From Flavobacterium sp. 140616W15 (GTDB lineage: Bacteria; Bacteroidota; Bacteroidia; Flavobacteriales; Flavobacteriaceae), in assembly GCF_003668995.1 (NCBI RefSeq), contig NZ_CP033068.1:3286001-3350000 (forward strand): DNA of 64,000 nucleotides. Reading direction: 5' to 3'. The notes under the pieces were generated by a model. The model ran no database searches and had not been told where the DNA came from. It saw only the letters and a program-made list of their open reading frames with translations. Every line of letters begins with the position of its first letter. The first letter of the stretch is position 1. Made by a program: the position numbers and the translations under genes. Shown here piece after piece: positions 39,388 through 64,000 of this stretch.

Positions 39388-42300
39388 ATGAAACTAAAGT
39401 TCAATGGATTCTTAGTGCTATTCTTAGTACTAGTCGCGCAACTTACTTTTGCGCAAGAAAGAGTTGTTTCAGGGACTATTTCCGACAATGCGGGCATGCC
39501 ATTACCAGGCGTGAGTGTATTGGTCAAAGGAACTAAAACCGGAACACAAACCGATTTTGATGGAAAATATTCTATCAAAGCTTCTTCAAGCCAAGTTTTG
39601 GTATTTAGCTACATTGGGATGAAAACCCAAGAAATAGCTGCAAGTTCTTCAGTAATCAATGTGAAACTGGCCGATGATTCAGTAGAATTAGAAAGCGTTG
39701 TTATTACTACTGCATTAGGGATCAAAAGAGAGAAAAAATCACTTGGATACTCTGCTCAAGATGTAAAAGGTGAAATAATCAGTGAAGGTGGAACAACCAA
39801 TGCTGTTTCTGCTTTATCTGGAAACATTGCGGGTCTTCAAGTTACTGCTCCATCTACAATGGGTGGTTCTACAAGAGTTATCTTAAGAGGTGTTGGATCT
39901 GTTACAGGAGAAAACAAACCACTTATCGTAGTTGATGGAATCCCATTAGACAATGGAAATTACAATGATTCCAACACCACAAGAGGTGCTGGAGGTAGAG
40001 ATTACGGAGATGCTTCTGCGGATATTAACCCAGACGACATTGAATCTGTAACTGTATTAAAAGGTGGACCAGCTGCTGCATTATACGGAAGTAGAGCAGG
40101 TAATGGTGCTATCTTATACACTACTAAATCTGGAAAGAAAAAAGGTGGTAAAAGCGAATTCTCTTTCAACACAGGTCTAACAATGGAGTCTATAAACATC
40201 AGACCAAATTTACAAAGATCATATGGTGGAGGTTCTATGTCAACTTTCAAAACCCAAGTTATTGATGGCAAAACTTACAACCTAGCAGAATATGATGTAG
40301 ATGAAAGTTGGGGACCAAAGTTTGATCCAAACGTAAAATACTTACCTTGGAATGCTTTTGACAAAGAATTTGCAAATGATTACATGAAAGAGAGATCATG
40401 GACAGCTTCAGCAAATGATGTAGATTCATTCTTTAGAGTAGGTACAACTAAAACTAACTCTTTATCATACTTGACATCTACTCAAGATAGTAATTTCAGA
40501 CTTTCTTATAGTAACCAACAGACTGAAGGTATAACACCAAATTCTTCACTTAAGAAAAATACTTTCTCGATTAATGCAAATTCTAAACTTGGAGATAAGT
40601 TTAAAGTTGAAGGAATGATGACTTTTGTACAAACTAAAGGATTCAACAGACCTGAAGTAGGATACGGAGACAATTCAGTGGCTCAAAAATTCTATCAATG
40701 GGGACAAAGACAACTTGATTTCAATGATTTGAAACAATATAAATTAGCAGACGGAAGCCAAAGATCTTGGAATAGAACTGCATGGAATGATGGAACACCA
40801 TTGTACTCTGATAATCCATATTGGATCATGAACGAAAACACTTCTGACGACACAAGAAATCGTTTGTATGGTAATGCTAAACTAACCTACAACATAACTC
40901 CTGATTTGTATTTAGTAGGTAACGTTTACGGAGACATGTATACTTTGAACATTAACGAAAGAGTAGCAGTAGGTTCTCAAGCTACATCAAGTTTCAAATC
41001 AACTACACGTACTTTAAGTGATTTTAACTACGAAGCTCGTATTCATTATGACAAACGTTTTGGCAAATTCAGCATCAGTTCATTTGCTGGGGTTAACAAA
41101 AGAGTATCTGAATACTCATTACTAAGTGGCGAAACCGTAGGTGGACTTAATTTAGCTAACATATACAGCCTTTCAAACAGTGTTGAAAGTGCTCTAGCAA
41201 AAAACTCTGGAACCGATAGCCAAACAAACAGTGTCTATGGTTTTGTTTCTATCGGATATAATGATATGCTATTTTTAGAAGCAACAGACAGAAATGACTG
41301 GTTTAGTACAACATATAAAGATGTTAATTACGCTTCACTTACAGGAAGTTTTGTTTTCTCTGAATTAATGAAAAACTCTTCATGGCTTAACTATGGTAAA
41401 TTAAGAGGAGGTTGGGCTCAAGCAGGAAATGCGACAAGTGCATACAGTTTAAATAACTACGCTGACACATATATCCCTTTCCAAGGAGATCCTAGATACA
41501 GTAATGCTCCTAGATCGAACGACAAATACTTAATACCAGAATTAAAGACTACTAAAGAAATTGGTTTAGAATTAAGCCTATTTAACAGAAGACTTAATAT
41601 AGATGCATCTTACTACGATGTTCTAACAGAAAACTTAATAACTCCAGTACAAGTTTTCGATGGTACTGGTTACTCAAGTTCTAATAAAAATGCTGGGAAA
41701 TTACAAAACAAAGGTTTTGAAACAACTATAACACTTACACCAGTAAGAACTCAAGATTTCTCATGGGACGTTACATGGAACTTTGCTAAAAATGAGAACA
41801 AACTATTAGAATTATCTGGAGACGCACAATCTTTATTATTACAAATTGCACCATTCCGTGCTTCATTGTACGCAATAGTTGGTCAACCATACGGTCAGAT
41901 TTACGGAACAGATTTTACTTATGATGACAAAGGAAACAAAGTCATAGGAGCTAATGGTAGATACGTAGCATCAGGTCAAAAATCACTTGGTTCGACTACT
42001 CCAGACTACAATATGGGTCTTAGAAACTCATTCAAATACAAAAATTTCAGTTTAAGCGCATTATTTGACATGCAAAAAGGTGCAAGCTACTTCTCAACAT
42101 CACATATGTACGGAATGTACTCTGGTATGCTTGAAGAAACTGCAGCAAACGGAGTACGTGAAAACGGGGTAGTTCTAGAAGGTGTATTAGCAGACGGAAC
42201 CCCAAACACAAAATCACTTACTGGTGTTCAATGGGGTAAAACTTATTCTGCTGGTATAGATAAACTTAATGTTTTCAGTTCTGACTACATTAAATTAAGA

Positions 42301-42519
42301 GAAGTTATATTCTCTTACAGTTTCCCAGTAAAATACACAGGTCCTTTCTCAGCAGTTAAGTTATCAGCCTTTGGTAGAAATCTATTTACATGGAACCTAG
42401 ACTGGAAAGGAATGGATCCAGAAATGGCATCATACGGTAGTGGAAACGTTCAAGGAATAGAAGGTGGTTCTTTACCATCAACTAGAACATACGGAATGAA
42501 TCTAGAATTAAAATTCTAA
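39388..42519 (+). CDS. SusC/RagA-family TonB-linked outer-membrane transporter (1)
   Basis: Outer-membrane active importer working with the SusD-like lipoprotein encoded 11 nt downstream. Of 1043 residues, the signal peptide ends LTFAQ, a carboxypeptidase-regulatory-like domain covers about 24-100 (SGTISDNAGMPLPGVSVLVK), the TonB plug about 110-250 (PLIVVDGIPLD, ALYGSRAGNGAILYTTK), then a 22-strand-type barrel ending in Phe (MNLELKF). No STN domain, so no direct sigma/anti-sigma link is expected. The substrate (glycan or peptide) is not evident, as no hydrolase accompanies it. Confidence 0.93.
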   Translation: MKLKFNGFLVLFLVLVAQLTFAQERVVSGTISDNAGMPLPGVSVLVKGTKTGTQTDFDGKYSIKASSSQVLVFSYIGMKTQEIAASSSVINVKLADDSVELESVVITTALGIKREKKSLGYSAQDVKGEIISEGGTTNAVSALSGNIAGLQVTAPSTMGGSTRVILRGVGSVTGENKPLIVVDGIPLDNGNYNDSNTTRGAGGRDYGDASADINPDDIESVTVLKGGPAAALYGSRAGNGAILYTTKSGKKKGGKSEFSFNTGLTMESINIRPNLQRSYGGGSMSTFKTQVIDGKTYNLAEYDVDESWGPKFDPNVKYLPWNAFDKEFANDYMKERSWTASANDVDSFFRVGTTKTNSLSYLTSTQDSNFRLSYSNQQTEGITPNSSLKKNTFSINANSKLGDKFKVEGMMTFVQTKGFNRPEVGYGDNSVAQKFYQWGQRQLDFNDLKQYKLADGSQRSWNRTAWNDGTPLYSDNPYWIMNENTSDDTRNRLYGNAKLTYNITPDLYLVGNVYGDMYTLNINERVAVGSQATSSFKSTTRTLSDFNYEARIHYDKRFGKFSISSFAGVNKRVSEYSLLSGETVGGLNLANIYSLSNSVESALAKNSGTDSQTNSVYGFVSIGYNDMLFLEATDRNDWFSTTYKDVNYASLTGSFVFSELMKNSSWLNYGKLRGGWAQAGNATSAYSLNNYADTYIPFQGDPRYSNAPRSNDKYLIPELKTTKEIGLELSLFNRRLNIDASYYDVLTENLITPVQVFDGTGYSSSNKNAGKLQNKGFETTITLTPVRTQDFSWDVTWNFAKNENKLLELSGDAQSLLLQIAPFRASLYAIVGQPYGQIYGTDFTYDDKGNKVIGANGRYVASGQKSLGSTTPDYNMGLRNSFKYKNFSLSALFDMQKGASYFSTSHMYGMYSGMLEETAANGVRENGVVLEGVLADGTPNTKSLTGVQWGKTYSAGIDKLNVFSSDYIKLREVIFSYSFPVKYTGPFSAVKLSAFGRNLFTWNLDWKGMDPEMASYGSGNVQGIEGGSLPSTRTYGMNLELKF

Positions 42520-42530
42520 AATAAGACAAA

Positions 42531-44120
42531 ATGAAAAAAATATTCATATCATTATTATCAGTTATGGCTTTTGGCCTACTGACAACTACCGTAAGCTGTA
42601 GTGACGGTTTAGAAGAATTAAACCAAGATCCCTACAGACCAGAGATCGTTAAAGTACCTGCTTATGGAATTTTCAATTACGCAAATAAGTCTTTACTAGA
42701 CGAAACAAGAAGCGTTTTCCCATCAGGAAGATTAGCGTTGCCTTGGGTACAATATTCTGCTCAGACAACTTATACTGAAGAAGATAGATTCCAATTCAGA
42801 ATTTCATCAAGAGATGCTTATTTCCAAAATTTGTACTTTGTTGCAAGAGATTACAAAACAATAATCGAAGCAAATACAAATCCTGAAACAGCTCCAAAAA
42901 ACGCAGCTTATGGTAATAATAAAAATCAAATTGCAGCCGCTAGAGTAATGTTAGCTTATACATTTTCAGTATTAGCTGATACTTATGGAGATGTTCCTTA
43001 TTATTCATACGGAAATAATGATCCAGATTTTCAAGCATTACAATTAGATAAAAATATTGAAACACCAAAATTTGCTTCGCAATTAAAAATCTACACAGAT
43101 ATCCTAAAAGAGTTAAAAGAATCTGTTGCGATGTTGGTTATGAGCGAGCCAGTTTTCACAAAAGGAGATTATCTTTTTGGCGGAGACGCTGAGAAACTTA
43201 AAAAATTCGCCAACTCTTTACGTTTACGTATAGCAACAAGAGTAAACGGAGTTGTACCTGGAGCTGCTGCTCATATCACAGAAGCAATAGCATCAGGGGT
43301 AATGGCAAGTAATGATGATAGCGTTGGTTTAACATATGAGAACAACAACGTAAACCCTGCTCCTTTCTACAAAGGATTCTATTTAGAAAACAGATCAGAT
43401 TTTAGAGTTGCAAACACTTTTATTGATTTATTAAAAGGTAAAATTGGGGTTTTTGGAATTGTTGATCCAAGATTACAAAAATACGCAGCACCTATTACTG
43501 CTGGTTTATTAGACATTAGAGATCAAGCCTATGCAGAAACTAACGACTTAACAAAGTACGCAGGTATGCCTTATGGTCTTGCAAATGATGAAGTTTCAAC
43601 ACAGAAAGCTAACACTTCAGTTTTTAGTTATAATGTATTGAAAAAAGATTATACTGAAATCATAATGGAGTACGCAGAAGTAGAATTTTTACTTGCTGAA
43701 AATAATGGATGGAGTGATACTAATTACAAAAATGGTATTAGAGCGTCTATGGAACGTTGGGGTGTAGATGATGCTAAGATTAATACTTACTTAGCTGCTG
43801 TAGCTGCTCCAAGTAAAGAAAATGTATTGACTCAGAAATATCTTGCTTTGTTTATGCAACCAGCAGAAGCTTGGGCTGAATACAGAAGAACAGGTTTTCC
43901 ATCTTCTTTATTAAAACCAGGACAAAAATATCCACTAAATGTTCCTGTGGGTTCAAAGGTTGAATATACTTTTGTTCCATTAGAACCACTAACAGATTTG
44001 CCTACTCGTTTAACATACCCTACTAACTCAGCTACTCTAAATAGTGCAAACTATGCCGAAGCTGCTAAAAACATGGGTGGTGACAAACTAGATTCAAAAT
44101 TAATCTGGGATAAAAACTAG
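42531..44120 (+). CDS. SusD/RagB-family lipoprotein (1), SusD-like_2 type
   Basis: Surface lipoprotein acting as the lid of the SusC channel. Lipobox ending at Cys23 (TTTVSC), then an alpha-helical TPR-like scaffold with ADTYGDVPYYSYG near residues 150-165 and the C-terminal AEYRRTGFPSS. 529 residues. Co-transcribed with the SusC-like gene 11 nt upstream and closed by the hairpin at 44158-44188. Confidence 0.92.
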   Translation: MKKIFISLLSVMAFGLLTTTVSCSDGLEELNQDPYRPEIVKVPAYGIFNYANKSLLDETRSVFPSGRLALPWVQYSAQTTYTEEDRFQFRISSRDAYFQNLYFVARDYKTIIEANTNPETAPKNAAYGNNKNQIAAARVMLAYTFSVLADTYGDVPYYSYGNNDPDFQALQLDKNIETPKFASQLKIYTDILKELKESVAMLVMSEPVFTKGDYLFGGDAEKLKKFANSLRLRIATRVNGVVPGAAAHITEAIASGVMASNDDSVGLTYENNNVNPAPFYKGFYLENRSDFRVANTFIDLLKGKIGVFGIVDPRLQKYAAPITAGLLDIRDQAYAETNDLTKYAGMPYGLANDEVSTQKANTSVFSYNVLKKDYTEIIMEYAEVEFLLAENNGWSDTNYKNGIRASMERWGVDDAKINTYLAAVAAPSKENVLTQKYLALFMQPAEAWAEYRRTGFPSSLLKPGQKYPLNVPVGSKVEYTFVPLEPLTDLPTRLTYPTNSATLNSANYAEAAKNMGGDKLDSKLIWDKN

Positions 44121-44157
44121 TATTATTTTAAGTGTTATTTGACACTATTACAATAAG

Positions 44158-44188
44158 AAACCACCAACGAAAGTTGGTGGTTTTTTTT
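44158..44188 (+). terminator. Terminator after SusD-like gene 1
   Basis: 11-bp stem AAACCACCAAC/GTTGGTGGTTT with a GAAA tetraloop and eight T. Its T run runs straight into the -7 element of rlmB. Confidence 0.85.
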
Positions 44189-44189
44189 A

Positions 44190-44197
44190 TATATTTG
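44190..44197 (+). promoter_or_regulatory. rlmB -7 element, probably leaderless transcript
   Basis: TATATTTG lies only 4 nt before the rlmB ATG at 44202, so transcription would begin at or next to the start codon. The -33 position falls inside the preceding terminator stem and has no clear TTG. Confidence 0.4.
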
Positions 44198-44201
44198 CAT
44201 T

Positions 44202-44936
44202 ATGGAAAAAGAACATCAAATATTTGGGATTAGAGCTATCATAGAAGCAATCCAAGCTGGTAAAGAAGTAGACAAAGTATTCATCCAAAAAGAAATTTCT
44301 GGTGAATTAATGAAAGATTTAATGAAAGTGATGAAACGCGCTAATATTAATTTTTCTTATGTACCTGTTGAAAAACTAAATCGCTTAACTCCAAATAACC
44401 ATCAAGGCGCTGTCGCAACCATATCTCCAATTGGTTTTATCGACATAGAGCATCTAGTAGAATCGACTCTAGAATCTGGGTTAAAACCATTATTCCTGAT
44501 ATTAGATCAAATATCTGATGCTAGAAATTTTGGTGCCATTATTAGAACTGCAGAATGTACTGGAGTAAACGGAATCATTGTTCAAAAAGCGGGTTCTGCT
44601 CCTGTAAATGGAGATACCGTTAAAACATCGGCTGGTGCCGTTTTTAATGTTCCAATATGCAAAGTAGAACACATTAAAGATGCTGTATTTTACCTTCAAG
44701 GATCCGGAATAAAAACCGTTGCCGCAACTGAAAAAACAGATAAAAACATTTACGATTTATCACTAAACGAACCTTTGGCAATTATCATGGGATCTGAAGA
44801 CAGAGGCATTAACCCTTCTGTTCTTAAAATTGTTGATGAAAAAGCAAAATTACCTATGTTTGGTACTATTGGCTCTTTGAATGTTTCTGTTGCTTGTGGC
44901 GCTTTCTTATATGAAGCTGTTAGACAAAGAAGCTAA
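44202..44936 (+). CDS. rlmB: 23S rRNA 2'-O-ribose methyltransferase (RlmB/TrmH family)
   Basis: SPOUT-class methyltransferase. N-terminal substrate-binding domain (EKEHQIFGIRAIIEAIQAGK) and a knotted SpoU domain with motif 1 DQISDARNFGAIIRTAE, motif 2 IIMGSEDRGI and motif 3 IGSLNVSVACGAFLYE. 244 residues, normal. By family it methylates G2251 of 23S rRNA using SAM; a related TrmH-type target cannot be excluded. It stands between two SusCD pairs, with its own terminator at 44983-45027. Confidence 0.9.
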   Translation: MEKEHQIFGIRAIIEAIQAGKEVDKVFIQKEISGELMKDLMKVMKRANINFSYVPVEKLNRLTPNNHQGAVATISPIGFIDIEHLVESTLESGLKPLFLILDQISDARNFGAIIRTAECTGVNGIIVQKAGSAPVNGDTVKTSAGAVFNVPICKVEHIKDAVFYLQGSGIKTVAATEKTDKNIYDLSLNEPLAIIMGSEDRGINPSVLKIVDEKAKLPMFGTIGSLNVSVACGAFLYEAVRQRS

Positions 44937-44982
44937 ATAACATAATCTTAGAAAGTAAATATAGCTTTCTAGTCGTTTAACA

Positions 44983-45027
44983 AAAAACTATACTTGTAAA
45001 ATCAATATTTACGAGTATAGTTTTTTT
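44983..45027 (+). terminator. rlmB terminator
   Basis: Stem AAACTATACTTGTAAA pairs with TTTACGAGTATAGTTT (one G-T wobble), loop of about 7 nt, then a T run. Confidence 0.8.
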
Positions 45028-45912
45028 GCTATACACACAACAGATAATAATTTTTAAAATTAAAACTAGTCAATAATATCTCAAATTAAACACAACCCTG
45101 GCTAGTTTCTTTAGTTTACAAAACGCACAATTCCTAAAAGTTACGTTAAACCCCTTCATCTATTTCTCAAAAAAAGCCAAGCATCAATATCTCAAATAAC
45201 AATAAAAATTTTTCGTAAGAAACTAAGATAGCACTTAATATTGATTACAAGTTTCATCATTTCCTTAAAATAAATATGGTGATAAAAATCTACATAAAGC
45301 GATCCAAACAGATACAAATTTAAGTTCAATATAAGCGCATAAGGAAATTAAGCTAAAAAATAAACAATCCGTAGCAAAGAATAAACCTTCATAAAAAATG
45401 AGATGACTACAAAACAAATTGATGTATCCATATAAAATTCAAAAAAGTAGTGTTAACGAAAAAAGCAAAATAAAAACACTTATAATACATGGATTTGACA
45501 GTGGAAACATAGATTAAAATTTAATATTTCATGACAATCATTTATATTCAACTTAAAACCATAATTTACATAGTTAAAAGAGTGTTTCAACTCAATAATA
45601 CTGTCTATACTCTACCAATTTTAAGAAATTAAAAGCAAAGAACGCAGTGAGCCCCCGTCATACATACAAATTATTCCTATTAAATGAAAAATTGAGCTCA
45701 AAAAAAATCACTTTTTATTCAATCCAAAAAATCATTTTTTTTAATCATAAAAAATAAAGCATTTCATTAAAAAAATGCAAATTTAATAAAAAGCACATAA
45801 AAATTTAACTTTACCTGTTTTAAAAAACAAGTAATAACTTACAATTAATAAATATTTTTAGTAAGAAATATAAACTTATTCCTAGAAAAAAGCTGTTTAT
45901 TGAAATTACCAA
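45028..45912. other. Gene-free AT-rich stretch between rlmB and susC-like gene 2
   Basis: About 885 nt with no ORF over 60 codons, no recognisable remnant in any frame I tried, and no repeat shared with the rest of the window. A short inverted repeat (GCATTT/AAATGC) lies near 45767-45790. Possibly a fully decayed gene or a long regulatory region for the downstream SusCD pair. Confidence 0.5.
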
Positions 45913-45971
45913 TTAGGTAGATTAACAATTTATTGTGAGTTTTGTGATTCTAATTAAAAATATTAAAAAGA
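45913..45971 (+). promoter_or_regulatory. Leader of susC-like gene 2, shared with susC-like gene 1
   Basis: Closely matches 39331-39387 (TTAACAA, GAGTTTTGTGAT, CTAATT, AAATATT blocks in the same order and spacing) and ends at the ATG. Confidence 0.45.
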
Positions 45972-48900
45972 ATGAAATTAAAGTTCAAAGGGATCTTAGT
46001 GCTATTCCTAGCACTAATTGCGCAACTAACTTTTGCACAAGAAAGAGCTGTTTCAGGTACTGTTTCTGACAATACAGGGATGCCATTACCAGGTGTTAGT
46101 GTATTAGTAAAAGGAACAAAAACGGGAACACAAACTGATTTTGATGGAAAATACACTATCAAAGCTTCATCGAATCAGGTATTAATTTTTAGCTACATTG
46201 GAATGAAAACCCAAGAAGTAGCTACAACGTCATCTACAGTTAATGTAAAATTAAAAGATGACTCAGTAGAACTAGAAGGCGTAGTTGTTACAGCTTTAGG
46301 AATTAAAAAAGAAGAGAAAAAACTTGGGTATGCAGTATCTAAAGTTTCTGCGGATGAAATTACTAAATCAGGTGAGCAAAATGTTCTTCAAGCATTAGCT
46401 GGTAAAGCTGCTGGAGTACAAATCATCGGATCTGGTGGAACTCCTGGTGCATCTAGTAAAATTATCATTAGAGGAACAAATACTATTACAGGTACAAGTG
46501 ACCCTCTTATCGTAGTAGATGGTATTCCAATTGATAATTCTACAACTCAAACTAGTGCAGGTGACAACCCTTTTAATGCAAACTTATCAGGAATCAATAA
46601 CTCAAACAGAGCATTAGACATTAATCCTGATGACATCGAAAGTGTTACTATTCTTAAAGGACCTGCTGCAGCTGCTTTATACGGAGCTAGAGCTGGTAAC
46701 GGTGTTATTATTTACACTACTAAGAAAGGTAAAAACGGAAAAGGACTAGGTATTGATTACAATAATTCGTTAGCTATAGACAAAGTAAGTCAATTGCCTG
46801 CAAGACAAAACAAATATGTTCAAGGTAATTATGACAAAGCTGGAGTTCCTCAATATGCATCAAATACTCCACAAAGTTGGGGCCCATCGGCTGCATCATT
46901 AGGTCTTCCTACTTACGACAATCCACGTAATTTCTTTCAAGAAGGTATTACTCAAACTAATAATATTTCGATATACGGAGGAGATGACAAAGCTACCTTT
47001 AGAGCTTCTTATGGTAACGTTACGCAAACAGGGATGATTCCTGAAACAGGATTAAAAAGAAATACTCTTAGACTTTCAGGAGACTTAAAATTAAGCGAAA
47101 AATGGAAAGCGGGTGCTAGTATGCAATACACGCACACAACTACTACTTTAGCCCAAAACGGTAGTAATGCTTCTGGAGTTATGTTAGGTTTAATGCGTTC
47201 TCCTATTAATTATGACTTAAGAAACTACAAGGATGAGTTTGGAAATAACACCAACTATTTCTCTGGATATGACAATCCTTACTTTACTGTAAATGAAAAT
47301 CAAGCAACAAGTGATGTAAATCGTGTTTTGGGTAACATCTACTTAACGTACAATCATGCAAAATGGTTATCATTAACAGCAAAAGGTGGTATTGATACTT
47401 ACTCAGACGCACGTAAACAAATCTATGCTGTTTCATCAAATGGTGATGATTTAGGTGGGATTGGTGAAGTTGCTTACAATAGCATCACAAACAAAGATTA
47501 CTATGGAGATTTAATAGCTTCAGGTTTAATACCATTAAACTCAGAATCGATAAAAATCAACTATACTGCGGGTCTTAACTTACGTTCTAATCAATATTTA
47601 GATATATTTTCAAGAGGTAAAGGTTTATCTGTACCAGGTGTATATAATTTGGGTAACGCAACTCAATTATACGCTTCTAACGTAGAAGAAAACACAATTT
47701 CTAGAGCTCTTTTTGCTCAAGTAGATTTTGACATCAAAGATCAACTTTTCATATCTGGTACAATCCGTAAGGAATGGGCATCTACATATGGTGACAATGT
47801 AAAAAGTGCTGTATTTCCTTCAGGAACGGCTTCTTGGATAGCATCAAATACCTTTGATTGGGGCAATTTCGTAAAATTTAGCTATGGATATGGAGAAGTA
47901 GGTATTGCGCCAGCAGCATATCGTACCAAAAGTTTTTACTCAAAACCATCCATGACTGATGGGTTCACAAATGGTTTAAGTTTTCCTTACAATGGAATAA
48001 ATGGAATGGCTTTAGCTGGTCGTTTATCTAATCCTGATTTAAAACCAGAAAGAGTATTAGGTCACGATTTAGGATTAAGTACTAAATTTTTAAACAATCG
48101 TTTAGCGATAGATGTGAATTTATACTATAAAACATCTAAAGATTTATTAATTGATGTACCATTACCACAGTCATCTGGCTTTGCAGCACAATATAAAAAT
48201 GCGGCTGAATTAGTTAACAAAGGTATTGAAGTAGAGATTGGCTACGATATATTTAAAAAAAGCAATCCATTTCAATGGAATGTTAATTTAAACTGGGCTA
48301 AAAACGAAAATGAAGTAACAGATATATCAGGTGGTTTACCTGAAATATCAATAGAAACTGCTTTTGCATCTATTGGATATTATGCTGTAAAAGGACAACC
48401 ATTAGGAAGTTTTTACGGAACGAAATGGAAACGTGATGAAAATGGGCAAAAAATCATTGGAAGCAATGGATTAGCTGTCGTAGCTGATGAAGTAGGGAAT
48501 TTAGGAAATTCAGCTCCAAAATGGACTGGTGGTATCAGAAATACTTTCTCTTACAAGAGAGTAACTTTGTCTGCTTTATTAGATATTAGACACGGAGGAG
48601 AAGTTTACAATGGTACACTAGCTAGAATGCACAGCATAGGTGTCTCTGAAGCCTCTGCAGATAGAGAAAGAACTTATGTCATAGAAGGTGTTAAAGAAGA
48701 TGGAACTCCGAATGACAAAGCAATAACAGCCCAACAATATTATCAAAAATATCTTGGTGATGGTGGTGGAGCAGCAGAAGAGGCAGTAGAAACTGTAAAC
48801 TGGGTTAGACTTCGTGATGCAACAATTAGCTATGATCTGAATGTAAAACAATTCCCATTCGTAACTGCGGCACAAATATCTCTAACAGGAAGAAACTTGT

Positions 48901-49034
48901 GGATAAATACAAACTACAAAGGAGTAGACCCTGAAACTAGCTTAACTGGTGCTGGATCTAGAATTAATGGATTAGACTATTTCAACAATCCTGGTAGTAA
49001 ATCTTTCATAATGAGTCTACGCGTAAGCTTTTAA
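45972..49034 (+). CDS. SusC/RagA-family TonB-linked outer-membrane transporter (2)
   Basis: 1020-residue outer-membrane importer. Signal peptide ending LTFAQ, carboxypeptidase-regulatory-like domain (about 24-100), plug (SDPLIVVDGIPID, ALYGARAGNGVIIYTTK) and barrel ending in Phe (FIMSLRVSF). The first 100 residues are nearly the same as in the transporter at 39388, but from the plug onward similarity drops to ordinary family level, so the two should import different substrates. Partner SusD-like gene starts 17 nt downstream. Confidence 0.93.
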   Translation: MKLKFKGILVLFLALIAQLTFAQERAVSGTVSDNTGMPLPGVSVLVKGTKTGTQTDFDGKYTIKASSNQVLIFSYIGMKTQEVATTSSTVNVKLKDDSVELEGVVVTALGIKKEEKKLGYAVSKVSADEITKSGEQNVLQALAGKAAGVQIIGSGGTPGASSKIIIRGTNTITGTSDPLIVVDGIPIDNSTTQTSAGDNPFNANLSGINNSNRALDINPDDIESVTILKGPAAAALYGARAGNGVIIYTTKKGKNGKGLGIDYNNSLAIDKVSQLPARQNKYVQGNYDKAGVPQYASNTPQSWGPSAASLGLPTYDNPRNFFQEGITQTNNISIYGGDDKATFRASYGNVTQTGMIPETGLKRNTLRLSGDLKLSEKWKAGASMQYTHTTTTLAQNGSNASGVMLGLMRSPINYDLRNYKDEFGNNTNYFSGYDNPYFTVNENQATSDVNRVLGNIYLTYNHAKWLSLTAKGGIDTYSDARKQIYAVSSNGDDLGGIGEVAYNSITNKDYYGDLIASGLIPLNSESIKINYTAGLNLRSNQYLDIFSRGKGLSVPGVYNLGNATQLYASNVEENTISRALFAQVDFDIKDQLFISGTIRKEWASTYGDNVKSAVFPSGTASWIASNTFDWGNFVKFSYGYGEVGIAPAAYRTKSFYSKPSMTDGFTNGLSFPYNGINGMALAGRLSNPDLKPERVLGHDLGLSTKFLNNRLAIDVNLYYKTSKDLLIDVPLPQSSGFAAQYKNAAELVNKGIEVEIGYDIFKKSNPFQWNVNLNWAKNENEVTDISGGLPEISIETAFASIGYYAVKGQPLGSFYGTKWKRDENGQKIIGSNGLAVVADEVGNLGNSAPKWTGGIRNTFSYKRVTLSALLDIRHGGEVYNGTLARMHSIGVSEASADRERTYVIEGVKEDGTPNDKAITAQQYYQKYLGDGGGAAEEAVETVNWVRLRDATISYDLNVKQFPFVTAAQISLTGRNLWINTNYKGVDPETSLTGAGSRINGLDYFNNPGSKSFIMSLRVSF

Positions 49035-49050
49035 TTAAAAACTAATAAAA

Positions 49051-50466
49051 ATGAAAAAATACATAAAAGGTATAATTCTAACAGCGTTTAGCATAACGTT
49101 ACTAAACAGTTGTCAATCTGAATTAGATGAATTTAACAACAATCCTAATAACCCCTCAGTTAGTACCCCTTCTTTATTGATGGCTGCAATGGAAGTTTCA
49201 ACATTTTCTACGCATACAAGTGGTTTAATGAGAAATACAGGCATTTTTACACAACATTTGGCGGGTACAAATATTGGGCAAATGGGACCAATCGCAAGTT
49301 ATATTGTAACCGAAGGAGATGTAAACAATGAGTGGAACCTTATTTATGGTACTACTTTAATGAATGGACATATCTTAAATAGAGATTTTGCAAAAGACTA
49401 TCCTTATTACAATGGAATAGGTCAGGTATTAACTGCTATAAATCTAGGATACGCTACAGATATGTGGGGAGATGTACCTTATGATGAAGCATTTCGTGCA
49501 GAACAAGGGAACAAAGCTCCTAAGTACAATACACAGCAAGAAATATACACCAGATTACAAACCATCTTAGATGATGCTATTATAAACTTAGCAAAACCCT
49601 TAGCTAGTAATGAAAAAGTACCTGAGGAGGACGATATGATTTTTAAAGGTGATACTAAAAAATGGATAAAAGTTGCTTACGTATTAAAAGCTAGATATGC
49701 TTTAAGACTGACTGCTATTGAAGGTAATGTTGCTGCTCAAAAAGCATTAGATTATATTACTCTAGCAGGTATGACTAAAAACGAAGATGATGCAAATACT
49801 TTGTTTACAAGTGAATCTAATAGTTTTAACCAATGGTATGCTTTTGAAGATACACGTGACAACTACTTAAAAGTGGGTAAATATATTGTTGATTATCTAA
49901 AAAACAACAATGACCCTAGACTATCAAGTATGATAGCCTTAACCAAAGCTCCAGTTCCTTTGCCACCGGGAACCATATTTATCCCAGAATATATAGGAAA
50001 TGCACCTGAGGATCAATCATCTGTTGGAACTTCTTATATCGGAGCAGCATTTGCTAGTAAAGACTCTCCTATTGGAATTGTAACTTATGCGGAAGCAAAA
50101 TTTATTGAGGCTGAAGCTAGAGCAATATTAGGACAATCAGGCGTACAAACTGCATTGAAAGATGCTGTAACTGCTTCTGTGACTAAGATTACTGGTACAG
50201 CTCCTACAGCAGGATTTTTAGCAACTGCAACTGCTGATTTTACTATTGCTAACATTATTCAACAGAAATATATTGCTCTATTTTTAACTATGGAGCCATA
50301 TAATGATTATAGAAGAACAGGTTTTCCTGCGTTAGTTCCTAATCAAGATTCTAATACAAAAACTATACCTGTAAGACTACCTACTCCGTCTGATGAAAGA
50401 CAATACAACCCAAACGCAACTGTGGTTAGTAATGTTACATCTCATATTTGGTGGGATAAAAACTAA
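49051..50466 (+). CDS. SusD/RagB-family lipoprotein (2), SusD-like_2 type
   Basis: Substrate-binding surface lipoprotein paired with the transporter just upstream. Lipobox at Cys21 (LLNSC), ATDMWGDVPYDEAFRAEQG near residues 135-153, and NDYRRTGFPALVP near the C-terminus; 471 residues. It differs strongly from the SusD-like protein at 42531. Followed by the hairpin terminator at 50491-50527. Confidence 0.92.
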   Translation: MKKYIKGIILTAFSITLLNSCQSELDEFNNNPNNPSVSTPSLLMAAMEVSTFSTHTSGLMRNTGIFTQHLAGTNIGQMGPIASYIVTEGDVNNEWNLIYGTTLMNGHILNRDFAKDYPYYNGIGQVLTAINLGYATDMWGDVPYDEAFRAEQGNKAPKYNTQQEIYTRLQTILDDAIINLAKPLASNEKVPEEDDMIFKGDTKKWIKVAYVLKARYALRLTAIEGNVAAQKALDYITLAGMTKNEDDANTLFTSESNSFNQWYAFEDTRDNYLKVGKYIVDYLKNNNDPRLSSMIALTKAPVPLPPGTIFIPEYIGNAPEDQSSVGTSYIGAAFASKDSPIGIVTYAEAKFIEAEARAILGQSGVQTALKDAVTASVTKITGTAPTAGFLATATADFTIANIIQQKYIALFLTMEPYNDYRRTGFPALVPNQDSNTKTIPVRLPTPSDERQYNPNATVVSNVTSHIWWDKN

Positions 50467-58069: not shown

Positions 58070-61000
58070 ATGAAGAATATCTATTTTGTCTTATTTCTAA
58101 TTTCTGCCTCTTTATTTGGGCAACAATATGAAAAAAATTGGAATAAAGTAATTGAAAACGAAAATCTCGGCAAAATAAAAACTGCTAATAAAATTGTTGC
58201 TGAAATCTATAAAAGAGCTGTAGCAAATAAAGATGAAGTGCAAATTATAAAATGCTTCTTTTATAACTCGAAGTACCTACAAGTTGTTGACGAAAATGCT
58301 CAGTCAAAGATTTTGAACAACTTGAGGTTTGAAATAAATCGTGCTTCAATCCCATCAAAAGCAATTCTGAATTTGGTTTATGTTAAATGTTTAAATGATT
58401 ATTTAGAAAGAAACCGCTATAAAATTAGCAATATAACAAATACTATAGAGGTCGATGACAATTTTTTAACATGGGCAACAGCTAATTTTGAAAACCAAAT
58501 TAAAAATGCCTTGATTAAATCCTTAGAAAATGAAGCGATTTTAAAAGCTACACCACTAGTTAATTATGAAGCAATTTTTGAATATCTAACTTTAGAAAAT
58601 TTTAAATCTCAAAATTTATATGATTACGTAATTTTAGAAAACATTGTACTATATACAAAAAAAATACAACCATGGGGAATCCAAAAAAGTGATTTCACTT
58701 CTTACAAAAAAGAACTTTTAGGCAAAACAAATGATTTTATAAAATTAAACTTGGACTTTATAACCAATGAAAATCTTCGTTTGGTTTTGTCTTTATATCA
58801 AAAAAAAGAAACGAATCAGCCTACAGCAGAAAATCAGTTTAAGCGTATTCTTTTTTCTAAAAATTATTTAATTGAAAATAACGATGATTATGTAAATTCA
58901 TTAAACATCCTTCAAAAAAGTACTAAGAATGAACATTTGATTCAAAAAATTCAATTACAAAAAGCTATTCTTTTAGAAGAAAAGGCATCAAAAAAAACTC
59001 ATCCTGATTACAACATCAAAGCAATTATAATTCTCGACAGTATCACAAGAATTAATAATCGATCAAATACGTACAAATTAGCGCTTGAAAGAAAGGAACG
59101 TATTAGGTCCAAATCAATAAACATTCAACTTCAAAAATACACTTACAATGAAGAGAATATCAGAGCTTACATCAACTATAAAAACGTAGATCAGCTTAAA
59201 ATTTCATTTTACAGGATTAGTCAAAAGCAACTAAAAGAATATGAAAACAATTCTACTCAGAAGAAAGACTTAGTTGACTCAATTATCCAAAAGGAGCCGC
59301 TTCTTTCGTCAAAATTTTATTCATTAAAAAACAAAAAAGATTATTTTGAATATTCTACAGAAATACTATTGCCTAATCTAAAAACTGGCTCTTATTTAGT
59401 TTATTTTGAAAGTGAATCTGACACCAAAGATAAAAAAGCCTTCGCGTTTGAAACCATTACAACTTCAAACATTTCAGTACTAGCATCACAAAATGACTCA
59501 AAAGAAACATTTCAAGTTCTAGATCGAAAAACAGGAAAACCTTTAGAGAATGCAACAATAAAATCTCTTAGGTTCAATATCCAAACAGACAAAGATGGTT
59601 TAGCTTCTTATAAAAAAGATTCCATTTATAATTATAAAACTATCGAATTGTCTCACGCAAATGACACCATTTTAATTAGCAAAAATTATATTCAATACAG
59701 TAACATTTACAATGAAAATGAAAAAGAAGATTCAAATGGAAAAGTTGAATTTTTCCTAGACAGAGCTATTTACCGCCCAGGACAGACTGTATATTATAAA
59801 GGAATAGCTATTCAGAAAAATAAAAACAAAACGAATGTCGTTACAAATACAACTTTTAAAATTACAATTGAAGACCCTAATGAAGATAGTATTAAAGAGT
59901 TTAATGTAACAACAAATGAATTCGGCTCTTTTTCAGGAAAATTTACTTTACCAAAAAATGGATTAACAGGTAATTTTAGAATTATTACAGAAGAGCCTAA
60001 TGACTATGAGAAAGATTCAATTTATAACAAAAAAAAAGCCCAACATCCTTTTTGGGATAATGTACATTTTGAAAATTCACAATCAGATTTCAGAGTTGAA
60101 GAATATAAACGTCCTAAATTCGAAGTTACATTTGAACCAAAAAAAGAAAGTTTTCAACTTAATCAAGCTATAAAAGTAAAAGGAACCGCCAAAGCTTTTG
60201 CAGGAAGCATCATTTCTGATGCAAAGGTTACCTATACTGTAACTAGATATATAAATTATTTTAGAAATTATTATGGACGGGAAGAACCCGAAGTTTTAGT
60301 AACAGAAGAAACTAAAACTGATGCCTCAGGTAAATTCATTATTGATTTTATGGCAGTTCCATCTAAAAACTCAAACAAAGAGCAATTACCTATTTTTAAT
60401 TATATAATAAATGCATCCATAACCGATATTAATGGTGAAACTCATACTGCTGAAACCACTATAAAAGTAGGATATCATGATTTAATTCTTAATGCCACAC
60501 TTCCTAATAAAATCGAGACTAAAAACAAAAATGAAATCACACTAACAAGTACTAATTTAAATGGAGAATTTCTAGCTACAAAAGGAGAAATTAAAATCTA
60601 TTACATTAGTCCTTTCTCAAATAAATTCAAGTCTAGAACTTGGGAAAAACCTGAAATAAACAATATATCCGAACAAGATTTTGAAATATTATTTCCATTC
60701 GAAAACAATAAAAAAGACACATTAGATAAAGCTACTGGAACTTTAGTTTTTTCTAAGAAAGTCAACACTGAAAAAGATAAAAAAGTCACTTTAGACTTTA
60801 TTTCAAATTATAAATCTGGTAATTACAAAATAGTTTTCTCAGCAAAAGACAGCTTCAATAATCCTATTGAAAGCTCATCCGAATTTAAACTTACGCAAAG
60901 CGAAGACAAATACGATACAGGGAAATTATTTACCGTAAAACAAACTAATGATGATCCTAAAAAAGATGGTTTTGTTTTATTAAAAATAACTTCGGTTATT

Positions 61001-64000
61001 CCTGAACTTTATATTATAACAACTGGAAATTATGACAGTAAAGTATTTTTTGAAGAAACAAAACATCTTAAAAATAATGAAGTCACCATGAAAATTCCAT
61101 TGAAAAATGAATTTGAAAAACAAATTAAATTAGGATTTGAAAGTGTTTTTGAAAACCAAACCTTTAATGATGAAGTAGCAATAACTTTAAAAAATCATGT
61201 CCCAACATTAAACTGGAAAGTAGAAAGTTTTAGAAATAAAATACAGCCTGGCAGCAGTGAAAATTGGTCCTTTCAATTAAATACAAATGGCACTAGGAAT
61301 GAAGCAGAAGTTTTGGCTTCTATGTATGATAGCTCATTGGACCAATTTACTACTAAAGATTGGAGTAGCTTAGATTTCAACCGATACAATTATAATGGAA
61401 TCAATACTAAAACATATTTAGGATTTGAAAAAACATCTACAAGTGTCAGAAATCTAAACACATATTTGAAAGGTATACAAGTAAATAATGAAACTACAAA
61501 TTTAATTTGGTTTGGATTTAATTTTAATACCCCCAATTCAATTTACCAACAAAAAGAATATCAAAAACAGCTTAGTAAAAAAACAAGAAAACCTGCCAAT
61601 GCAAAACTAATTTGGGGCATAATCTCAGATAATGAAGGCTTGCCACTACCAGGAGCATCTATCACGGTAAAAAACACACCAAGATCTACAACATCTGACT
61701 TTGATGGTTACTATGAAATTGATGCCGCTACAGGAGAAGAGTTGGTTTTTTCTTACGTAGGAATGCAGACCAAAACTGTTGAAATAAATAATTCAAAAGA
61801 AATTACTATAGCCTTAGAAGAAGACTCTAATCAACTTCAAGAAGTTGTAGTTACAGCTTTGGGAATGAAAAAAGAAAAAAAATCGATGAGTTATTCAGTT
61901 GAAGCTACTGGAACTGGAACCGCAGCTATTGTTGAAGAAGATAATCAAGTAAATAATACTCTAGGAATTAGCGACAGTCTTCAAGGGTTTATTAATGGAG
62001 TTAGTATCTCTAAAAGTCCCACTAATAGATTAATCGTTCGTGGAGCAAGCTCTATAGCGACAAACAAAGATGTATTATGTATAATTGATGGAGAAATCGC
62101 AACCGAAGAAACAATTAAAAACCTAAATCCTTCAGTCATCCTTTCAGTTGATGTTATAACAGAAAAAAAAGCAACTGCTCTTTACGGAAACAAAGGAGCA
62201 AATGGGGCCATAATAATCACCACAAAAAATGCTATAAAAGAACTAACCCAAGTAAAAGCAAGAAAAAATTTATCGGAAACCGCTTTCTTTCTTCCAAATT
62301 TAAAAACGGATGCTAAAGGAAATGTTAGCTTTAATTTCACTTCACCCGAAGTTTTAACCGCTTGGAAACTCCGATTATTGGCACATAACAAAGATGCTGT
62401 TTCGAGTTATTTAGAGAAAAGTGTTATTACCCAAAAAGAACTAATGGTTTTGCCGAATTTCCCACGTTTCTTAAGAGAAAAAGACACGATTGTTATTAGT
62501 ACTAAAATATCAAATATTACTGCTGAAGCTAAAACTGGAATTGCAATCTTACAGTTTTTTGATGCTACAACAATGCAACCAATTGATGCAAAAATGCTGA
62601 ATGTAAAAAACGTTAAAAACTTTACTGTTGAGGCATTTGGAAATACAACTGCAAGTTGGACTGTTTCGATTCCAGAAGGCATACAAGGTGTACAATATAA
62701 AATTCTAGCTAAATCAGGTAATTTCTCTGATGGTGAAGAAAACATACTTCCTGTTTTAACAAATAACATGTTGGTTACTGAAAGTATCCCAATTTGGGTT
62801 CGAGAAAATTCAACCAAAGAATATACACTTGAGAATCTAAAAAATAACACTTCAACAACTTTAAAAAATCACCAACTTACATTAGAATATACTTCTAATC
62901 CTGCTTGGATTGCGATTCAGTCTTTGCCCTATTTAATGGAATACGAACATGAATGTGCTGAGCAAACTTTTGCACGCTTTTATGCTAATTCTTTGGCTTC
63001 AGAAATCATATCGAGTAATCCGAAGATTGCAACTATTTTTGAAAATTGGAGAAAGAACGAAAAACTGAATTCAAAATTAGAAGAAAATGAAGAACTAAAA
63101 TCAATCATTATTGCAGAAACTCCTTGGTTAAATGACGCACAAAGCGAAGACGAAAAGAAAAAGAATCTAGCTCTTTTATTTGATTTAGAAAAAATGAAAA
63201 CTTCACAAGAAGCTACATTTGATAAATTAAAACAAAAGCAAAAAATATCTGGAGGATTCTCTTGGTTTGACGGAAGTGATGAAAACGAATACATTACAAG
63301 GCACATTCTAGCAGGTTTAGGTCATCTATCTAAATTGAATAAAACAGAAGATAATAATGATAAAATTGATGCTATTGCCAAAACCGGAATTCCATTTCTG
63401 GATAACAAGTTTTTAGAATACTATAAAACTAAAAATTTAAAAGCAACCAATAAACTAATCTGGATTAATCCTTATTCTGATTTACATTATCTCTATACCA
63501 GAAGTTTTTATTTAGATAATTATCCCCTTTCGGATACTTTGAAAAAAGCTACTAAATTATATCTTGAAACCACAAAGAAAGACTGGTTAAAGTATTCTCT
63601 TTACGAAAAAGGATTAGCCGTCTTAACCTTAAATCGCTTCGGAGAAAGTGAAACAGCTAAAAAAATCATCGAGAGTTTAAAAGAAACAGCTTCTAACAAT
63701 GAAGACTGGGGAATGTACTGGATTACGAATAAAGCGGGATGGTATTGGTATCAAGCACCTATAGAAACTCAGGCTTTATTGATTGAGGCTTTCGCTGAAG
63801 TAAATAATGACACTAAATCAGTAGATGCGATGAAAGTCTGGCTGCTAAAAAATAAGCAAACCAAAAACTGGCCAACTACAAAATCCACTACCGAAGCCGT
63901 TTATGCCTTATTAATGCAAGGCAAGAATGGATTAAGCATAAAAGACAATACTGTTATTAAAATTGGAGATGAAAAAATTCTAAACGAAAAACTAAACGAA
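58070..64000 (+). CDS. Alpha-2-macroglobulin-family protein with an inserted SusC-type CarboxypepD_reg + TonB-plug module (partial, runs off right edge)
   Basis: Signal peptide (ISASLFGQ) at the N-terminus; about 1,977 codons are open to the window end without frame break. Helical N-terminal region (to about 330), then macroglobulin MG domains with the MG2 signature LDRAIYRPGQTVYYKG near residue 565, and the A2M region opening at MYDSSLDQF. At about residues 1178-1390 a foreign module is inserted: WGIISDNEGLPLPGASITVK, EEDSNQLQEVVVTALG, LIVRGASSIATN and ALYGNKGANGAIIITTK, i.e. a carboxypeptidase-regulatory fold plus a TonB plug with no barrel. A2M then resumes with FFLPNLKTDAKGNVSF and the thioester motif CAEQ at C1629-Q1632. 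Bacterial A2M proteins are thought to trap proteases in the envelope; the plug's role is unknown. Confidence 0.85.
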   Translation, partial: MKNIYFVLFLISASLFGQQYEKNWNKVIENENLGKIKTANKIVAEIYKRAVANKDEVQIIKCFFYNSKYLQVVDENAQSKILNNLRFEINRASIPSKAILNLVYVKCLNDYLERNRYKISNITNTIEVDDNFLTWATANFENQIKNALIKSLENEAILKATPLVNYEAIFEYLTLENFKSQNLYDYVILENIVLYTKKIQPWGIQKSDFTSYKKELLGKTNDFIKLNLDFITNENLRLVLSLYQKKETNQPTAENQFKRILFSKNYLIENNDDYVNSLNILQKSTKNEHLIQKIQLQKAILLEEKASKKTHPDYNIKAIIILDSITRINNRSNTYKLALERKERIRSKSINIQLQKYTYNEENIRAYINYKNVDQLKISFYRISQKQLKEYENNSTQKKDLVDSIIQKEPLLSSKFYSLKNKKDYFEYSTEILLPNLKTGSYLVYFESESDTKDKKAFAFETITTSNISVLASQNDSKETFQVLDRKTGKPLENATIKSLRFNIQTDKDGLASYKKDSIYNYKTIELSHANDTILISKNYIQYSNIYNENEKEDSNGKVEFFLDRAIYRPGQTVYYKGIAIQKNKNKTNVVTNTTFKITIEDPNEDSIKEFNVTTNEFGSFSGKFTLPKNGLTGNFRIITEEPNDYEKDSIYNKKKAQHPFWDNVHFENSQSDFRVEEYKRPKFEVTFEPKKESFQLNQAIKVKGTAKAFAGSIISDAKVTYTVTRYINYFRNYYGREEPEVLVTEETKTDASGKFIIDFMAVPSKNSNKEQLPIFNYIINASITDINGETHTAETTIKVGYHDLILNATLPNKIETKNKNEITLTSTNLNGEFLATKGEIKIYYISPFSNKFKSRTWEKPEINNISEQDFEILFPFENNKKDTLDKATGTLVFSKKVNTEKDKKVTLDFISNYKSGNYKIVFSAKDSFNNPIESSSEFKLTQSEDKYDTGKLFTVKQTNDDPKKDGFVLLKITSVIPELYIITTGNYDSKVFFEETKHLKNNEVTMKIPLKNEFEKQIKLGFESVFENQTFNDEVAITLKNHVPTLNWKVESFRNKIQPGSSENWSFQLNTNGTRNEAEVLASMYDSSLDQFTTKDWSSLDFNRYNYNGINTKTYLGFEKTSTSVRNLNTYLKGIQVNNETTNLIWFGFNFNTPNSIYQQKEYQKQLSKKTRKPANAKLIWGIISDNEGLPLPGASITVKNTPRSTTSDFDGYYEIDAATGEELVFSYVGMQTKTVEINNSKEITIALEEDSNQLQEVVVTALGMKKEKKSMSYSVEATGTGTAAIVEEDNQVNNTLGISDSLQGFINGVSISKSPTNRLIVRGASSIATNKDVLCIIDGEIATEETIKNLNPSVILSVDVITEKKATALYGNKGANGAIIITTKNAIKELTQVKARKNLSETAFFLPNLKTDAKGNVSFNFTSPEVLTAWKLRLLAHNKDAVSSYLEKSVITQKELMVLPNFPRFLREKDTIVISTKISNITAEAKTGIAILQFFDATTMQPIDAKMLNVKNVKNFTVEAFGNTTASWTVSIPEGIQGVQYKILAKSGNFSDGEENILPVLTNNMLVTESIPIWVRENSTKEYTLENLKNNTSTTLKNHQLTLEYTSNPAWIAIQSLPYLMEYEHECAEQTFARFYANSLASEIISSNPKIATIFENWRKNEKLNSKLEENEELKSIIIAETPWLNDAQSEDEKKKNLALLFDLEKMKTSQEATFDKLKQKQKISGGFSWFDGSDENEYITRHILAGLGHLSKLNKTEDNNDKIDAIAKTGIPFLDNKFLEYYKTKNLKATNKLIWINPYSDLHYLYTRSFYLDNYPLSDTLKKATKLYLETTKKDWLKYSLYEKGLAVLTLNRFGESETAKKIIESLKETASNNEDWGMYWITNKAGWYWYQAPIETQALLIEAFAEVNNDTKSVDAMKVWLLKNKQTKNWPTTKSTTEAVYALLMQGKNGLSIKDNTVIKIGDEKILNEKLNE

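Follow-up and report, generated by a model that had tools for sequence, protein, structure and literature searches.

SusC- and TonB-like pieces at the predicted bait site of a Flavobacterium alpha-2-macroglobulin

The window, a stretch of 64,000 nucleotides of the Flavobacterium sp. 140616W15 genome, ends inside a gene of the alpha-2-macroglobulin (A2M) family. Judged from its sequence, the insert in the encoded protein is a collage of SusC N-terminal parts and a TonB-linker-like piece. Our favoured reading, to which we give a probability of roughly 55%, is that this insert is a self-mimic bait: it would act as a decoy against proteases whose targets are the Ton system and LptD.

The A2M-family gene (58070..64000; this and all features given by window position below are on the plus strand) opens at 58070 and runs beyond the window to G000:C1:3350591, so that the window holds residues 1–1977 of the complete 2173-aa protein. 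The genome is a single contig of 4,935,222 bases. The profile matches stand in the order MG2 (PF01835, 59750..60007, residues 561–646, E 3.9e-18), NTE-type CarbopepD_reg_2 (residues 1183–1261), A2M (PF00207, 62279..62533, residues 1404–1488, E 1.8e-15) and bMG10 (residues 2036–2160). MG2, PF00207 and bMG10 are thus in the order of a thioester-type A2M, and a CxEQ motif, CAEQ, lies in the thioester domain (62954..62965, residues 1629–1632). The protein belongs to the known bacterial A2M family, but its bait is of a new kind. PF07703 and the Pfam Plug domain were missing from its domain list. By eye, the N-terminus resembles a signal peptide that lacks a lipobox cysteine, and a simple pattern found no lipobox in 73/73 full-length named relatives. 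The A2M is probably periplasmic.

A peptidase S46 gene (L006:7666-9810, minus strand) lies directly downstream of the A2M gene and is convergent with it. Two susC genes are located at 39388–50466 of the window, approximately 9 and 16 kb upstream, and each is followed by an ORF that, by position, resembles a susD partner. Broken or split susC genes are also present in the genome at G000:C1:542.2-545.1 kb, 1767.8-1770.9 kb and 3563.0-3565.9 kb.

A preliminary description of the window had read a SusC N-terminal module without its barrel inside the A2M protein, and the profile search agreed on both points. Residues 1181–1390 matched TIGR04056 positions 3–220 (E 5.6e-53); the match halted at position 220 of 981, and PF00207 followed immediately past the insert. 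The parts of the module are in SusC order: the NTE (CarbopepD_reg_2, 61604..61822, residues 1179–1251), the Ton-box link LQEVVVTALG (61835..61864, residues 1256–1265) and the plug remainder (61970..62227, residues 1301–1386) with the SusC/RagA signature at its end. An assembly chimera of an A2M gene and a susC fragment was ruled out because the genome is one contig and the layout recurs in other genomes. An ordinary MG domain with chance similarity to a plug was ruled out by the TIGR04056 match and the structure alignment. The same architecture, proposed as a search target in that description, was found repeatedly in other Bacteroidota. Database names uniting both domains, which it had vaguely remembered, do exist: some A2Ms are called SusC/RagA receptors or 'TonB-dependent receptor plug' proteins, an oddity that the insert explains. 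Barrel-less plugs were also seen by eye outside A2Ms, in two adjacent small proteins with SusC parts at L362 (G174:C26:46500-49500). Both bear a plug signature: one, of 220 aa, is secreted and also has an NTE, and the other, of 321 aa, is anti-sigma-like and also has a membrane segment.

The insert follows the conserved anchor MYDSSLDQF (61322..61348), which ends the bait-region domain and is directly followed by a variable stretch. In 6/7 relatives scanned, PF07703 ended at most 19 residues from the MYDxSLD anchor, and then came a variable stretch and PF00207. The A2M flanks of the structure model aligned to residues 855–1126 of the E. coli A2M (ECAM). The disordered bait of ECAM, given as Arg923–Leu942 in PMC4498604, lies within this range, so the insert, on this model, occupies the site of the E. 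coli bait. The same paper describes how, in known A2Ms, cleavage of the disordered bait springs the protein and the protease is bound via the thioester. Swapping the bait of the E. coli A2M decides which protease is captured, according to PMC9918453. The bait of one short-bait relative was modelled at a pLDDT below 50.

The bait was compared among close homologues, a set of 196 proteins taken from the best 120 of 6987 matches to the A2M body and the best 120 of 202 matches to the module. The 189 proteins longer than 2000 aa were kept (116 from the A2M-body list and 73 from the module list); where the source named them, they were Flavobacterium or Flavobacteriaceae. The plug part was the most variable stretch among these 189 homologues, with a mean pair identity of 0.26–0.33 in its first half vs. 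0.8–0.9 around the thioester. Some relatives had NTE, Ton box and plug and others had part of these, and P0117 and P0009, among those printed, had no plug. The preliminary description was partly supported in its functional readings. Judged by position, its idea of a bait-region replacement exposed to proteases is the best-fitting of those offered. Its suggestions that the plug serves as a gate or pairs with SusC barrels were left unsupported, because in many relatives only fragments of the module survive, and their order is often different.

The collage contains one piece beyond the module described earlier. Residues 1276–1300 (61895..61969), between the Ton box and the plug, are identical at 19/25 positions to the linker region of the TonB encoded in the same genome; the best 25-residue BLOSUM score was 95, whereas 2000 shuffles reached at most 49. 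When the DNA of the module was searched independently against the genome that carries it, four non-self matches appeared, namely three susC genes (one split) and one tonB, the latter match lying upstream of the TonB_C domain. The TonB of this genome was matched (E<1e-3) by 102/189 homologue baits vs. 0/945 shuffles and 0/1512 segments from elsewhere in the same A2Ms; the shuffles preserve composition only, and the related sequences are not independent. The matches mostly covered TonB residues ~97–170 (the linker), rarely the C-terminal domain and never the first 60 residues. The sources are matched to the lineage: among 12 TonBs tested in seven genomes, six picked for TonB-like baits plus this genome, the best match was the genome's own TonB in 5/7. 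TonB pieces were common only in Flavobacterium-like homologues (f3 3/30, f4 3/29, other named Flavobacteriaceae loci 3/78).

LptD was matched by 54/189 homologue baits vs. 3/945 shuffles and 3/1512 same-A2M segments. The 911-aa donor ORF was identified as LptD by PF19838 (E 2.9e-169), and 53/54 of the LptD HSPs ended by its residue 252. Since the Pfam LptD_2 match begins at residue 240, these pieces are N-terminal yet overlap the first residues of LptD_2. From the LptD fold, the stretch up to residue 252 is presumably still within the periplasmic domain. SusC was matched by 187/189 baits, a count taken without a shuffle control, and 3877/3924 of the HSPs began in the first 300 SusC residues. 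The bait matched SusC/TonB/LptD in 114/79/49 of the 116 homologues picked by A2M body and in 73/23/5 of the 73 picked by module similarity. The E-values for baits against TonB, LptD and SusC come from BLAST with small databases and no composition correction.

Donors were also sought at the protein level with one bait, that of the A2M in genome G174, against two genomes. In the Flavobacterium sp. 140616W15 genome (E<=0.05) it gave 28 matches, of which 25 overlapped TIGR04056 hits and the remaining three were an A2M, a TonB and an LptD. In G174 itself it gave 43: the A2M, one LptD-like ORF, one TonB, a pair of small ORFs and a further 38 of 982–1247 aa.

These donors bear on an alternative in which the bait tolerates almost anything, and multi-copy susC and other envelope genes donate in-frame fragments that drift until they are replaced. 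This fits the variability of the plug part and the close homologues in which whole modules, fragments and losses stand side by side. It also fits the number of susC genes, with 23 TIGR04056 matches above the family cut-off in this genome. However, the donors found in both searches of this genome were only SusC, TonB and LptD, mostly in their periplasm-facing parts. Copy number alone fails for the TonB and LptD donors, because TonB_C has six matches in this genome and LptD was matched once by the G174 bait. We consider such capture without selection unlikely, and the distribution of pieces across the phylum also weighs against it.

The phylum survey comprised loci from several further groups and 80 named loci, whose titles place nearly all of them in Flavobacteriaceae. 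All control A2Ms came from within the phylum. Among 257 loci, 21 had no bait end and four no bait start (these losses included 13/30 loci in the class of G132 and 7/30 in f2), and 232 baits were left, 224 of them distinct. SusC blocks were scored at the 99% point of shuffles, at which ~1.5 matches per block are expected. The 154 short distinct baits contained the Ton-box link in 45, the LQGKVAGV-type plug strand in 37, the IRIRG strand in 22, the NTE block in three, the signature block in three and the PLYVVDG block in none. In the 70 long distinct baits, for which the pooled threshold is lenient, N-terminal blocks occurred in 34–44. The six SusC barrel blocks were found in 0–4 of the short and 0–8 of the long baits at these 1% thresholds, which counts against a bait that takes up any fragment at hand.

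A scan of all SusC positions in 45 short named baits again showed two peaks, at the Ton-box link and LQGKVAGV. N-terminal matches occurred in 30/45 of these baits vs. 16% of shuffles and barrel matches in 17/45 vs. 39% of shuffles; among same-A2M control segments, 89% matched barrel windows and 23% matched N-terminal windows, which reflects composition. Four-letter words with the strongest enrichment in the baits include DFDG, ALYG, VVGY, VGYG, LDEV and EVVV.

The Ton-box link is the commonest piece of the short baits, and it raises another possibility, docking, in which the Ton box binds the TonB C-terminal domain and tethers the trap to the Ton complex beside the SusC channels that admit foreign peptides and proteins. 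The Ton box that this requires is present in the window protein. The SusC protein Bt1763 needs its Ton box, DEVVVTG, for transport, as stated in PMC7782687. However, the link was undetected in 109/154 short baits, TonB binding is not expected of TonB-linker or LptD pieces, and NTE and plug are unnecessary for it. We regard docking as improbable.

Baits with pieces of transporters, TonB or LptD recur in several Bacteroidota families and are widespread but not universal. The Ton-box link was near background in f5 (3/30) and in the class of G132 (1/17), in a set that compares 'phylum' with other groups and includes duplicate loci. SusC was found in 15/15 f5 genomes tested, although f5 baits mostly lack the pieces. 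In G132 there was no SusC at E<=1e-100, and likewise in 8/10 tested genomes of its class. The bait piece of G132 matched six other ORFs of G132 (E 6e-7 to 7e-3), which by eye look like another class of TonB-dependent transporter (TBDT)-like proteins; the printed alignments, of which the sixth is incomplete, jump 22–31 plug residues. Some f2, f4 and f5 baits (e.g., L284, L187 and L235) hold calcium-site-like strings of the DxDGVxD type, possibly from another donor. Strings of this type occur in OmpA-like proteins.

The order of the pieces differs between short and long baits. Where a short bait combined the Ton-box link with a further piece, the link was last in 20/24 cases, unlike in SusC, and these 20 span several families. 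In long baits that had such pieces together with a plug end (signature or PLYVVDG block), the link came first, as in SusC, in 22/24, and it was also first in 12/14 long baits without a plug end. A single ancestral insertion of a SusC N-terminus, decayed in most lineages, is very improbable: full NTE–plug modules do share one site in many Flavobacteriaceae, and f3 and f2 loci, too, have signature-bearing modules, but the difference in link order disfavors simple decay, and TonB, LptD and non-SusC transporter pieces cannot be decay products of SusC, so that piece order and the other donors already strain this explanation.

The thioester motif was missing in 12/23 f2 loci, and f2 A2Ms without it (e.g., L284 and L292) can still bear Ton-box-like baits. 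Overall, 11/18 motif-less loci keep a Ton-box-like string; the pieces thus do not go hand in hand with covalent capture.

As a self-mimic, the bait would be built from periplasm-facing parts: NTE, Ton box and plug of TBDTs, the TonB linker and the N-terminal region of LptD, the last of these in relatives. A loose periplasmic protease, whether from a rival, a predator or the host or the cell's own stray enzyme, would cut the bait in place of these parts. The cut would let the A2M collapse and expose its thioester, and the protease would then be held covalently. The pieces resemble periplasm-facing parts of machines that are not easily spared, and a bait copying them may be cut by whatever cuts them. 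The likeness of the bait to the nutrient-import and outer-membrane machinery of the cell suggests that it lures enzymes attacking that machinery, and selection for substrate mimicry may maintain the pieces. Several points count against the self-mimic reading. Many baits have no recognised piece, TonB pieces are common in one group of homologues only, Ton-box-like strings also occur in loci that lack the thioester motif, the NTE is a folded domain and thus odd in an easily cut bait, and the fast evolution of the plug part also fits a loss of constraint.

A broader proposal is tentative and, in our judgement, falls somewhat short of an even chance. Bacteroidota A2Ms may be integrated-decoy immune proteins in which selection rebuilds the bait from the lineage's own protease-exposed Ton and LPS-assembly parts, recording what attackers cut. 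If baits copy self proteins, the bait would be a readable list of periplasmic protease targets. The open-licence literature searched, outside which most subscription journals lie, gave no account of A2M baits that contain pieces of TonB, LptD or a Ton box.

The window protein resembles type I bacterial A2Ms (E. coli YfhM/ECAM and Salmonella SaA2M) in MG2, the A2M domain, bMG10, CxEQ and the bait position. It differs in a bait of SusC- and TonB-like pieces, with LptD-like pieces in relatives, and in the missing lipobox of the 73 relatives noted above. Its bait spans ~240 residues, whereas that of ECAM has 20 residues without density (PMC4498604). Like the SusC/RagA N-terminus (Bt1763 and RagA), the window protein has an NTE, a Ton box, a plug and a signature, arranged as in SusC. 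Unlike these proteins, it has no barrel, carries a TonB-linker-like piece before the plug and is embedded in another protein.

In plant NLR integrated decoys, a guard protein contains a built-in duplicate of a self protein that attackers target. The self-like pieces in the window A2M are comparable by analogy only, as the protein family differs and the proposed outcome is enzyme capture instead of signalling; the self-mimic bait, if true, would be a bacterial instance of the integrated decoy. The engineered E. coli A2Mcap has a swapped bait whose sequence was selected to suit a protease (PMC9918453). A2Mcap is engineered with one short site, whereas the window bait is natural and resembles the cell's own proteins. 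MagD of P. aeruginosa, which is a type II A2M and lacks the thioester, aids resistance to some type VI effectors according to PMC12663445, and may serve by analogy as a distant precedent for an A2M role in defence against other bacteria.
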